A DNA stretch of 64,000 nucleotides from Vulcanisaeta moutnovskia 768-28. Its GTDB lineage: Archaea; Thermoproteota; Thermoprotei; Thermoproteales; Thermocladiaceae. Below are positions 29,696 through 35,562 of the stretch, piece after piece. A program made the translations under genes and the position numbers. The notes beneath the pieces were generated by a model, which was not told where the DNA came from, searched no databases, and saw only the letters and a list, made by a program, of their open reading frames with translations. The stretch's first letter is position 1, and each line of letters starts with the position of its first letter. The stretch is taken from NCBI RefSeq assembly GCF_000190315.1, contig NC_015151.1, positions 2,024,509 through 2,088,508 on the forward strand. Direction: 5' to 3'.

Positions 29696-31138
29696 TTACC
29701 TTGCGAATTGATTATAGCCAGAGGCATTGACGTTATAGTACGTTAGATCCCAGGTTGGTGGTGCGCTTAATTCGAATGGTGTCATGTAGTTTGCCGGTAA
29801 CGTCTTAGTTGTTTCGTTTAGGAATGTTACCTGTATGTCGAACATTGTACCATTAAATATATAATCATATATTGGGTACTTAGTGTATGCGTACTGGAAC
29901 TCGAGTTGTGTATATGTGGCGTAGAACGGTGTTCCACTATATGGTATCTCATGTACCCAGAGTTGATCTGTGTTATAGTCATAAACCTCAAAAATTATCT
30001 CCTTGGTGCTCATATTGTAATAAATCATTAACCTTAGTAATGTGTTATTGGGTGTTTGTATGCCAGGCAATACTGCGGGATTCATCGTTGTCTCGTTAAA
30101 GTAATAATGAGCAAAGCAATTTTTACCGGGTACGTACCAAGGCGCAATCGTACCATTCGGGTCAAGGTCAACCCCTATTTGGAAGAAGCCGACACAAGAT
30201 GACCTGGTGGCTCCGTAGTAATTCATGGCATTTATTTGAAAGCTCAATATACCAACCTGTGGCGTGTTCCAGTACCTAAGTAGTACGAGTGCAGTTAAGT
30301 TATAAAATGGTGGTAGTAAGGTAGTGAGTAGGCCTGATCCCTGCCCATAACCCTCCATATTATTATACTTCTGCAGGTATATTGGTATCTCGAGGCTTGT
30401 GACTATAATGTCCGTGTAATAAACAGTCCCGCTGGTGGTGTTTATGACCGCCGTGTAGTAATTACCTGCATCAGGAACAGAAACCTCAAATGGGGGTTCA
30501 TCAGTCTGATCAACAAATACCTGCATAACCCAACCAGCGGTTTTATTATACGGTGTGCTGGCATTGAATACGTTAACCATTATGAAGACCCAACCAGGTG
30601 GGTAAAGCGCATTTGATAGGCTTAATAAGGGAACCACAGGCTTTAAGTCCGTTAGGTTTGGGCCAGCCCACACATAACCATTAGCAATACCAACTATGGC
30701 GACTGGTTCATAATTACTATTCACTAAACCAAAGAATCCACTACCACCATCACCGTAATAAATCGCCACCTGGAAGGATAGGAATTGATCACCCCTAACT
30801 ATTAATGATGGATTAACAATATCAATCTGAGGTTCGCCATTTAAGGCCGTAGACTCCAGTGCAGGTTCGCCCCAGTAGTTGGGTTGCGTAACTATTACTG
30901 GCGCTTGCCCATTAATGCTTATCCACCCATAATAACTGGGTGGTTCATTCACGTTCTCAAAGTTAGATACATAGGTAAAGGCGCCAACAAGTGATGCGGC
31001 AGGTGCCAGTCTTGGTAAGGGTTTATGTACATGGGTGTAATCATGTTGTGATAAGAAGGTATTTGCTGTCAGTGTTATTGTTAGTATTATCGCCATCATT
31101 ATCATAATTTTTATGGTTTTCCAGTTACCCTTTGTCAT
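29696..31138 (-). CDS. Large secreted or surface-anchored protein B
   Basis: This 480-residue exported protein begins with a basic stretch and a hydrophobic segment (about residues 9-28, rich in Ile, Met and Thr) that is a signal peptide or anchor. The body is beta-rich, with about ten NxS/T sites and Tyr, Asn and Thr in abundance. Two Cys near residues 320 and 347 may pair. ANYYTAVIN-type strands and a tail rich in aromatic residues are seen, but no known domain. It is similar in style to protein A at 24310 and lies just downstream of acnA on the same strand, 53 nt away. Confidence 0.75.
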   Translation of the reverse strand: MTKGNWKTIKIMIMMAIILTITLTANTFLSQHDYTHVHKPLPRLAPAASLVGAFTYVSNFENVNEPPSYYGWISINGQAPVIVTQPNYWGEPALESTALNGEPQIDIVNPSLIVRGDQFLSFQVAIYYGDGGSGFFGLVNSNYEPVAIVGIANGYVWAGPNLTDLKPVVPLLSLSNALYPPGWVFIMVNVFNASTPYNKTAGWVMQVFVDQTDEPPFEVSVPDAGNYYTAVINTTSGTVYYTDIIVTSLEIPIYLQKYNNMEGYGQGSGLLTTLLPPFYNLTALVLLRYWNTPQVGILSFQINAMNYYGATRSSCVGFFQIGVDLDPNGTIAPWYVPGKNCFAHYYFNETTMNPAVLPGIQTPNNTLLRLMIYYNMSTKEIIFEVYDYNTDQLWVHEIPYSGTPFYATYTQLEFQYAYTKYPIYDYIFNGTMFDIQVTFLNETTKTLPANYMTPFELSAPPTWDLTYYNVNASGYNQFAR

Positions 31139-31961: not shown

Positions 31962-32147
31962 ATGATGAGGCATGAATTAAGGAGATACATCACCTATGGG
32001 CAATTAATAATGTGGCCCAGGATTGTTATAAGTGCGAGAAATCACGTTAAGTTGGTGTTATTTAGTAATGCCATAAGTAAGGGTGATGTAAGGAGTATTA
32101 GGTGTACGATGGTCAGGATCTTAAGACAAGAACTCATTGCTCAGTAG
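31962..32147 (+). CDS. Small basic hypothetical protein (61 residues), leaderless
   Basis: The 61-residue protein is basic (about ten Arg and Lys) with a middle hydrophobic strand (RIVISARNHVKLVLF). It has no recognised family. Its promoter supports it: TTTTTAATATA at 31931-31941 is centred 26 nt before the ATG. Its last 14 nt overlap the end of the convergent NAD kinase-like gene. The size and charge suggest a nucleic acid or ribosome binder, but this is guesswork. Confidence 0.5.
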   Translation: MMRHELRRYITYGQLIMWPRIVISARNHVKLVLFSNAISKGDVRSIRCTMVRILRQELIAQ

Positions 32148-33120
32148 ATTTTAATGAATAAACAATAACCTCCTTATTACCCCTAATAATTACCTGCCTC
32201 TGAATTAATCCCTTCCTAATCAAAATACTCAATGCGTTCCTAACAGTCCTACTGGGTAACATTGTCTTCTCAACAATCTCCCTCTGCGTTAACTGACCCT
32301 CGTACTCAAGAATCTTAAGTATGAACTTGGCACTTGGTGGTAGGTCCATATTGGCTAGAAGGCTTACCTTCTTCTCATAACGGCCAATGGCACTCGAGAC
32401 ATTACCAACCCTAATAAGCTTAAGTGGCTTTCCAGGCATTATCTTAGTCTCATTACTCACGTAGGTCCTAATACTGCCGTCTATTATCACCTCAATCCTG
32501 GACCTGGAAATTAGGTCCTTTATGCTAATTACAGAATCGCTGGGTACAATTACTGGTACGCGGGCTAGGTTCGTACTATTAACGGGCACTATCTCAAAGA
32601 CCTGGGCTCTCGAGTGTATTAATGGGCCTCCTGCCGACATTGCGTATGCTGTGGAGCCCGTGGGCGTTGATATTATTAGGCCATCGGCGACATCATGCCA
32701 TAGATACTCATTATTCACGTACAGGCTATACTCAAGGGTTATTGCGCTTTTAGCTGGGAAAATGGCGACCTCATTTATTGCATTTGGTAGTTTCTTCCCT
32801 TTCACGTTCACGGAAAGCCTGAGTATCTCCTCAACATCGTAACTACCACTCACTATCGTCGATAAGGCCTTATCCAGGTTTGCGATGTCCACGGAATTCA
32901 GGAAGCTCAGTCCAAAACCCACGGTGAGGACCGGGCCCTCCCATGAATTTAATTTATGAAGGTTCATGATTATGAACCTATCTGTCCCAATAATACCTAT
33001 AACATCGTAATTACTAACATCATCGCTCAGCTCAGTGACTACATTAAATGATGAGTAATCATTAATTAACTTCTTAACCTCATCAACAACGCTAGGCATT
33101 GTTATCAACAGACCTCTCAT
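32134..33120 (-). CDS. NAD kinase-like protein fused to a winged helix
   Basis: Residues about 1-255 follow the NAD kinase fold: LTVGFGLSFLN (65-75), the NE motif in AINEVAIF (114-121), HDVADGLIISTPTGSTAYA (142-160) with the ligand-binding Asp and Thr residues, and SAGGPLIHS. The GGDG motif that should bind ATP near residue 45 is replaced by IGTDR. Residues about 262-328 are a winged helix-turn-helix with LTQREIVEKTMLPSRTVRNA as recognition region. True NAD kinases make NADP. The missing GGDG and the DNA-binding tail suggest an NAD(P)-sensing regulator instead (inference). Residual kinase activity cannot be excluded. Confidence 0.85.
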   Translation of the reverse strand: MRGLLITMPSVVDEVKKLINDYSSFNVVTELSDDVSNYDVIGIIGTDRFIIMNLHKLNSWEGPVLTVGFGLSFLNSVDIANLDKALSTIVSGSYDVEEILRLSVNVKGKKLPNAINEVAIFPAKSAITLEYSLYVNNEYLWHDVADGLIISTPTGSTAYAMSAGGPLIHSRAQVFEIVPVNSTNLARVPVIVPSDSVISIKDLISRSRIEVIIDGSIRTYVSNETKIMPGKPLKLIRVGNVSSAIGRYEKKVSLLANMDLPPSAKFILKILEYEGQLTQREIVEKTMLPSRTVRNALSILIRKGLIQRQVIIRGNKEVIVYSLKSTEQ

Positions 33121-33214
33121 CTTTGTTAATTATAGAATGCTACAGGAATTTATTTTTTACTATGATTACCTCGATAATGTATGCCTTAAAAATGCGAGTA
33201 ATTAACTATGTAGG

Positions 33215-34602: not shown

Positions 34603-35562
34603 ATGTTTAAAACTAGGTCGTATTTTTACCTAACCACTATGTCCAATTTATGCATTTATGTTATTGTCGTCTTGACAGTGATTCTTGTGATTATTGGTGC
34701 TTATCTGAGCATGATTGTCATCTCATTAAAGAATGAAGTTAATGCGTTAAGAACGGGCATGTTAAGGAGCGTATCAGAGTATTACGAGTCATTGACGAAA
34801 CCCATGCTTTATATTTCCACATATGGGAATTATAGTTTCGTGGCTTTGTATCTAAACATAACGAACCCAACAAATGAATTAATGAATATTACAATTAACA
34901 TAATTACCATACAACCACCAATACCATATCAGGTATTCCTAGCATATCCGATGGCATTCATAATACCACCAAAAACCACAGTCTCACTACCAGTAATACT
35001 TAACTTATTTAATTCGTCCATGAATAACATAACGAATATAAACATAACAATCACAATACTCACCAATGAACTAGCCAATTTAAGATTACCTGGGGTTACA
35101 TACAACGTATCGATAATCGAGGTCATTCCGATGAAACAACCAATGGGTATTGCATTTTACGGGCTAACTCAGGGATCATTGTTCTCTCTACGTGTTATGG
35201 ATCCATTATCAAGTTCAATGACGATTATTAGTTATGAGATGTACGCCTATAATGGCTCTTTGTTAACCTCATGCATTTTAAGTAAATCCTTAGTTATAAA
35301 TCCAATGAGCTTTACTGGTTTCTCTCTACCGACTAGATCAGGTACATTCTCTACATTGTTTATCGTAAATATGCCATCTAGTCGGTTAGAAACTTCATTT
35401 TCAGCATCAACGATATGTACAGTGAACTACACGCTTCCAACAAACGATGCAGAATTACCCTATGGATATGTTATGCTGAACACAAATATCGGGAACATAA
35501 CAATACCGTTAATACCATTTCCGCCTATCTTCCATAACATAACATCTAATGCTTCTCATTAA
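34603..35562 (+). CDS. Membrane-anchored surface protein
   Basis: The 319-residue protein has one N-terminal membrane helix (about residues 17-42), followed by an extracellular domain with many NxS/T sites and Ile, Thr and Asn-rich strands. LYLNITNPTNELMNITINI has the look of an Ig-like beta sandwich. TATA-like TTATTATACC near 34566-34577 is centred about 26-30 nt upstream of ATG 34603. This supports the first ATG, though a second at 34639 would fit the anchor as well. No family is recognised. It may be a glycoprotein of the cell envelope. Confidence 0.72.
   Translation: MFKTRSYFYLTTMSNLCIYVIVVLTVILVIIGAYLSMIVISLKNEVNALRTGMLRSVSEYYESLTKPMLYISTYGNYSFVALYLNITNPTNELMNITINIITIQPPIPYQVFLAYPMAFIIPPKTTVSLPVILNLFNSSMNNITNINITITILTNELANLRLPGVTYNVSIIEVIPMKQPMGIAFYGLTQGSLFSLRVMDPLSSSMTIISYEMYAYNGSLLTSCILSKSLVINPMSFTGFSLPTRSGTFSTLFIVNMPSSRLETSFSASTICTVNYTLPTNDAELPYGYVMLNTNIGNITIPLIPFPPIFHNITSNASH

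Follow-up and report, generated by a model that had tools for sequence, protein, structure and literature searches.

The gene considered here encodes a NAD-kinase-like protein that ends in a winged helix (hereafter NADK-wHTH), and raises the question of whether such a protein acts as an enzyme or has become a transcription regulator. A sequence-only reading of the locus had favored the second answer and had suggested NAD(P) or ATP as the ligand sensed. The window, i.e., the whole stretch of DNA analyzed, comprised 64,000 nucleotides of Vulcanisaeta moutnovskia 768-28 (positions 2,024,509 to 2,088,508 of contig NC_015151.1), the genome of which consists of a single contig (C1) of 2,298,983 bases. 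Coordinates of the features at the locus are listed in Table 1.

Table 1. Features of the NADK-wHTH locus (positions are those of the window).
Feature	Position	Strand	Basis
Gene of the putative NADK-wHTH regulator	32134..33120	-	328 aa, ATG start; ORF call and purifying selection (dN/dS 0.05)
NAD-kinase-fold domain (putative sensor), about residues 1-257	32350..33120	-	PF20143 and phmmer matches to solved NAD kinases
GTDR, residues 45-48, divergent GGDG motif with invariant Asp47	32977..32988	-	Alignment of 77 family members
NE motif, residues 116-117, NAD ribose contact	32770..32775	-	N 77/77, E or D 77/77; role from PMC8553519, PMC12052686
DGLIISTPTGSTAY, residues 146-159, conserved region II	32644..32685	-	Family alignment; PMC8553519
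C-terminal winged helix, about residues 260-323	32152..32343	-	Pfam HTH_24/MarR_2, AlphaFold, structural matches
Intergenic region common to the NADK-wHTH gene and the divergent 83-aa ORF	33121..33214	.	Without significant family palindrome

Both the open reading frame and the fusion that had been read from the sequence proved real. Thus, Pfam placed NAD_kinase_C (PF20143) at residues 116–225 of the 328-aa protein (E 2.6e-27), and residues 35–235 matched NAD kinases in a phmmer search of PDB sequences with E values down to 1e-23. Winged-helix models matched weakly but consistently at about residues 259–314 (HTH_24 at 2.4e-5, which is above its cut-off, and MarR_2 at 3.5e-5), residues 252–323 matched an archaeal HTH protein in the PDB sequence search, and the AlphaFold model was confident solely for a winged helix at about residues 260–323 (pLDDT 64–89 per block), in agreement with the claimed position of this domain at residues 262–328. 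A model of the whole protein, obtained with five Vulcanisaeta sequences as input, had a pLDDT of 40 and contained no usable NAD-kinase domain. The modeled winged helix resembled those of MarR, RPC62 and TFE (Z about 11–12), and R291, T292 and R294 within it were nearly invariant in the family alignment. The protein does not have a stand-alone MarR fold, since only the winged helix is MarR-like and this is appended to the NAD-kinase domain. The scores of all NCBIfam NAD kinase equivalogs were far under cut-off, the best being 143.7 bits for NF002984 as opposed to the required 326. Comparison with V. distributa-type relatives gave a dN/dS of 0.05 for the gene and 0.03 for the winged helix, indicating strong purifying selection on both domains. 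All 42 relatives scanned for domains contained NAD_kinase_C, and 32 of them also matched a MarR_2-type HTH with E<=1e-3. The presence of both domains in relatives, together with the strong purifying selection, indicates that the fusion did not arise by chance.

A second, canonical NAD kinase, for which a search had been proposed along with the sequence-only reading, was found in the same genome, with an intact GGDG motif, at C1:1192454–1193053 on the minus strand. In a phylogenetic tree, the fusion proteins were monophyletic with respect to canonical NAD kinases (support 100/99). The family is spread over Thermoproteota, with a strong match in roughly 150 of 398 sampled genomes, usually accompanied by a second NAD-kinase match. 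Most Thermoproteaceae in which a single match passed the strict threshold turned out to carry both the fusion protein and a NAD kinase, and the majority of the family-bearing genomes checked contained a canonical GGDG NAD kinase. A third NAD_kinase_C protein of 352 aa from an Acidianus-like member of Sulfolobaceae (L259) was set aside; it lacked the G[ST][ST]AY motif and had no clear relation to the family. In three draft Vulcanisaeta assemblies (L039, L040 and L041) the NADK-wHTH gene was split by frame shifts or stops, which were judged likely sequencing errors because the estimated completeness of these assemblies is only 63–67%.

The NE motif (residues 116–117) and the STPTGSTAY motif (residues 151–159) were present as claimed, whereas the GGDG motif, which had been described as lost, is represented by G45-T46-D47-R48. 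In an alignment of 77 non-identical relatives, G45 and D47 were invariant, position 46 (the second glycine of GGDG) was G in just 20 and otherwise T, D, E or another residue, and position 48 (the fourth glycine) was R or K in 66, so that G-x-D-[RK] stands in most of the family where NAD kinases have GGDG. Asparagine at position 116 and either E or D at position 117 were noted in all 77 relatives, as were D146, G147, G155, S156 and Y159 of conserved region II (DG...TPTGSTAY). Two further residues, D143 and N181, were invariant in this family and distinguish it from NAD kinases. In NAD kinases, the Asp of GGDG abstracts the proton of the 2'-OH (PMC8553519), and Mycobacterium tuberculosis Ppnk requires the Asn and Glu of its NE/D motif as well as the Thr and Tyr of TGSTAY (PMC8553519; also PMC12052686). 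Counterparts of all five of these residues occur in the family (D47, N116 and Y159 in 77/77, with E or D at 117 and T or S at 157), so the NAD site of the family looks intact. Since the catalytic Asp is invariant, the premise of a lost GGDG was only half right, as it applies to the second and fourth glycines and fails as an argument about catalysis. Loss of catalysis in the family is plausible in view of the near universal GGDGT of archaeal NAD kinases (124/127; PMC8553519) but, as only these two glycines change, it stays no more than plausible.

Genes around the family gene were identified with NCBIfam equivalogs. The immediate neighbor, mostly in divergent orientation, was nadA at 12 of 39 loci outside Nitrososphaeria, across several archaeal families, usually accompanied by nadC and nadX (at 11 and 9 loci, respectively). 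At 5 further loci outside Nitrososphaeria, the gene immediately next to the family gene encoded an aromatic-acid/H+ symport-type MFS transporter (TIGR00895). In Acidianus-like Sulfolobaceae, which were absent among the genomes found to carry nadA, the gene was divergent from a permease, with GGCAAAAAATGCC in between. Nitrososphaeria had the gene beside those of a PfkB kinase and CTP synthase, away from nad genes, and the neighbors at the window locus (232-aa and 83-aa proteins and RpoL) revealed no link to NAD. Several other arrangements were also noted. Thus, a NadC-NadX fusion, a single protein of 515–516 aa, was encoded downstream of the family gene and nadA in some Thermoproteaceae (L082 and L086), and in others (L081, L085 and L099) the family gene adjoined purB (adenylosuccinate lyase) instead of nad genes, with an intergenic region that contained no palindrome. 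Three Acidianus-like loci (L068, L069 and L070) carried a divergent amino-acid-type permease gene together with a molybdenum-hydroxylase-like gene, possibly for nicotinate uptake or use. Two secreted or membrane proteins encoded near the gene in the window (29696–31138 and 34603–35562) were without any Pfam match.

A de novo palindromic EM search revealed that upstream regions of the family share the palindrome GGCAA-N3-TTGCC, with an LLR of 52.5 as opposed to 22–25 in shuffles. A weight matrix (PWM) was built from 15 of these family-upstream sites only and tested at nadA promoters of genomes in which the family gene is distant. Among Nitrososphaeria, 26 of 26 such promoters had a site at p<0.05 and 19 at p<0.01, many of them a perfect TGGCAA-N3-TTGCCA; the corresponding number for other family-bearing genomes was 8 of 18 at p<0.05, and several family-bearing genomes (G041, G153 and G010) had no nadA-promoter site. 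Genomes that lack the family had sites at 2 of 26 nadA promoters at p<0.05 and at none of the 26 at p<0.01, and unrelated control genes had 1 in 53. The comparison of nadA promoters was highly significant (Mann-Whitney 3e-9), but gene and palindrome both follow clades, and therefore the genomes are not independent and the co-occurrence is partly confounded by clade. In a control within Thermoproteaceae, two genomes without a detected family gene (G300 and G079, one of them 80% complete) had weak sites (p 0.035–0.045).

The distance from the palindrome center to the downstream TATA box was 49–51 bp in 24 of 24 Nitrososphaeria, and that to the ATG ranged from 61 to 102. A weaker second site, mostly 31 bp nearer the TATA box, was noted in about six Nitrososphaeria nadA promoters; the second site of L178, L181, L188 and L193 is a TGCAAT-type palindrome that lies exactly 31 bp downstream of the first. 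No consistent palindrome was seen upstream of the PfkB and family genes of Nitrososphaeria. In V. distributa and congeners, GGCATTTCTTGCC-like sites occurred 94–99 bp before nadA. The exact pattern GGCANNNNTTGCC was rejected as a stand-alone marker after a genome-wide search of five Vulcanisaeta, in which matches were mostly coding or unrelated. This pattern is unspecific alone, and its specificity comes only from its position in nad promoters.

The family is probably a switch for NAD supply in many archaea, because relatives of the window protein adjoin NAD-making genes and because a conserved palindrome marks the promoters of these genes. The reading that we favor, and hold with fair confidence, is that of a DNA-binding transcription regulator in which a former NAD kinase serves as the sensor and which exerts feedback on NAD-supply genes through the palindrome. 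Most likely, it is a NAD(P)-sensing regulator of both NAD synthesis and niacin uptake. The NADK-wHTH protein itself would be the binder of the palindrome, presumably as a dimer on TGGCAA-N3-TTGCCA in promoters of NAD-supply genes, and NAD(P) would be the ligand of its NAD-kinase-derived domain. DNA binding probably depends on whether NAD(P) fills the intact NAD site, which would provide feedback control of the NAD pool. The regulated genes would be those of the nadA operon, which serves de novo synthesis, and, in uptake-reliant lineages, those of MFS or other permeases.

The situation in V. moutnovskia is different from that in most congeners, in which nadA is retained; at the locus inspected (L177), it is part of a nadA-nadB-nadC operon. 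Neither nadA nor nadC was found in the V. moutnovskia genome. The pncB gene is kept (C1:841068–842342), and niacin auxotrophy with salvage by pncB is predicted. Autoregulation through the intergenic region upstream of the NADK-wHTH gene, where a test of DNA binding had been proposed, received no support, as the best palindrome there, GGCATACATTATC, had a p of 0.46 (PWM). The earlier view of an enzyme-derived NAD(P)-sensing transcription factor found good support at the level of the family, in the nadA-nadC-nadX and transporter context, the palindrome, the distant nadA promoters and the separate NAD kinase; a nad-linked operator, which is a trait of NrtR, was evident for the family only and was not seen at the window locus. 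For ATP, nothing beyond the fold speaks in favor of such a ligand. The promoters of pncB and the NAD kinase gene of V. moutnovskia were considered as targets and not accepted (p 0.07–0.08). Since nadA has been lost, niacin uptake is the likely remaining target of the regulator in this organism. The closest V. moutnovskia homologue of the MFS transporter that adjoins the family gene elsewhere is encoded at C1:2197838–2199190 (L264), and a TGCAATTAATGCC palindrome lies over the likely start codon of this gene (p 0.007, one of five tested), which makes its product a candidate niacin transporter.

Other explanations of these results differ in whether the protein is still an enzyme, whether it is still functional and whether it is the factor that reads the palindrome. 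Retention of counterparts of all five essential Ppnk residues would be expected of a bifunctional (trigger) enzyme, i.e., a NAD kinase that is still active and in addition acts on transcription in the manner of NadR or prototypic NrtR. This is unlikely, however, given that the V. moutnovskia genome and most of the family-bearing genomes checked encode a canonical GGDG NAD kinase, and given the usual loss of the second glycine and the R or K in 66 of 77 relatives at the fourth, as opposed to GGDGT in 124 of 127 archaeal NAD kinases (PMC8553519). That the V. moutnovskia gene is a functionless remnant, left behind by the loss of nadA, would agree with the absence of nadA and nadC and of a significant site in its own promoter, but the reading frame is intact and the strong purifying selection noted above makes such a relic improbable, though loss of nadA could be recent, in which case pairwise dN/dS mostly predates it.

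The nadA palindrome might also serve some other, unrelated regulator as its operator while the NADK-wHTH protein controls something else. The location of the Nitrososphaeria gene beside PfkB kinase and CTP synthase genes and the weak palindromes in two Thermoproteaceae that lack the family are consistent with this explanation, but we give it little credence in that the motif was learned only from upstream regions of the family, was subsequently recovered at distant nadA promoters, is not in family-lacking clades, and is accompanied by nadA adjacency that recurs across several archaeal families. A variant of the favored reading, and not exclusive of it, is that the protein is a NAD(P)-dependent activator of nadA instead of a repressor. 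The constant placement of the site relative to the TATA box in Nitrososphaeria has the position and phasing usual for activators, whereas sites in Thermoproteia lie near or overlap the core promoter or start codon at several loci, as for repressors, and the second, weaker site in about six genomes would allow a tandem repressor to reach the BRE. Activation is thus a serious minority possibility, and repression would be modestly favored over it.

Among known regulators of NAD metabolism, the NADK-wHTH protein is like NrtR in logic but most likely belongs to none of the NrtR, NadR or NiaR groups. Bacterial NrtR also combines an enzyme-derived sensor with a winged helix; its gene may be oriented divergently to nadA/B/C, in which case the site lies in the common intergenic region, and it has homologues that have lost catalysis (PMC6800001). 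The sensor of NrtR is a Nudix fold, however, for which Pfam and NCBIfam scans of the window protein reported no match, whereas that of the archaeal protein is a NAD-kinase fold and its operator is different. NadR of Enterobacteriaceae is likewise a NAD-liganded regulator of NAD metabolism with domains of NAD-pathway enzymes (PMC6800001). In contrast with the window protein, NadR consists of an N-terminal repressor domain followed by NMN adenylyltransferase and ribosylnicotinamide kinase domains, neither of which was reported in the same scans, and is unrelated to NAD kinase. NiaR senses nicotinic acid and does not have a NAD-kinase fold. Similarity to NiaR (YrxA) lies in the repression by the latter of genes for NAD synthesis and niacin transport (PMC6800001; PMC5343564); no NiaR-type model was reported in scans of the protein. 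With NAD kinase itself (NadF/PpnK, PF01513 and PF20143) the protein shares a homologous fold, the NE, D and TGSTAY motifs and the catalytic Asp, but it differs in having G-x-D-R/K for GGDG, an added C-terminal winged helix, the invariant D143 and N181 and a separate clade. In the literature searched, control of NAD synthesis was described for bacteria (NadR, NiaR and NrtR), with no archaeal counterpart, no regulator derived from NAD kinase and no paper that linked NAD kinase and HTH domains in archaea.

It is reasonable, although with somewhat less assurance than for the function of the protein, to regard the family as a new class of NAD-homeostasis regulator that would have been born once from NAD kinase early in Thermoproteota, reads NAD(P) at a NAD-kinase site that is intact yet put to a new use, and controls nadA and niacin uptake via TGGCAA-N3-TTGCCA. 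If so, no other archaeal NAD-supply regulator for which an operator is predicted would precede it in the literature searched, and its early origin in Thermoproteota would take in the ammonia-oxidizing archaea. Annotation of NADK-wHTH proteins as NAD kinases should be avoided; they represent a clean case of the conversion of an enzyme to a putative sensor with the catalytic Asp kept, and provide a regulator, operator and regulon that can be tested in much of Thermoproteota, including ammonia-oxidizing archaea.
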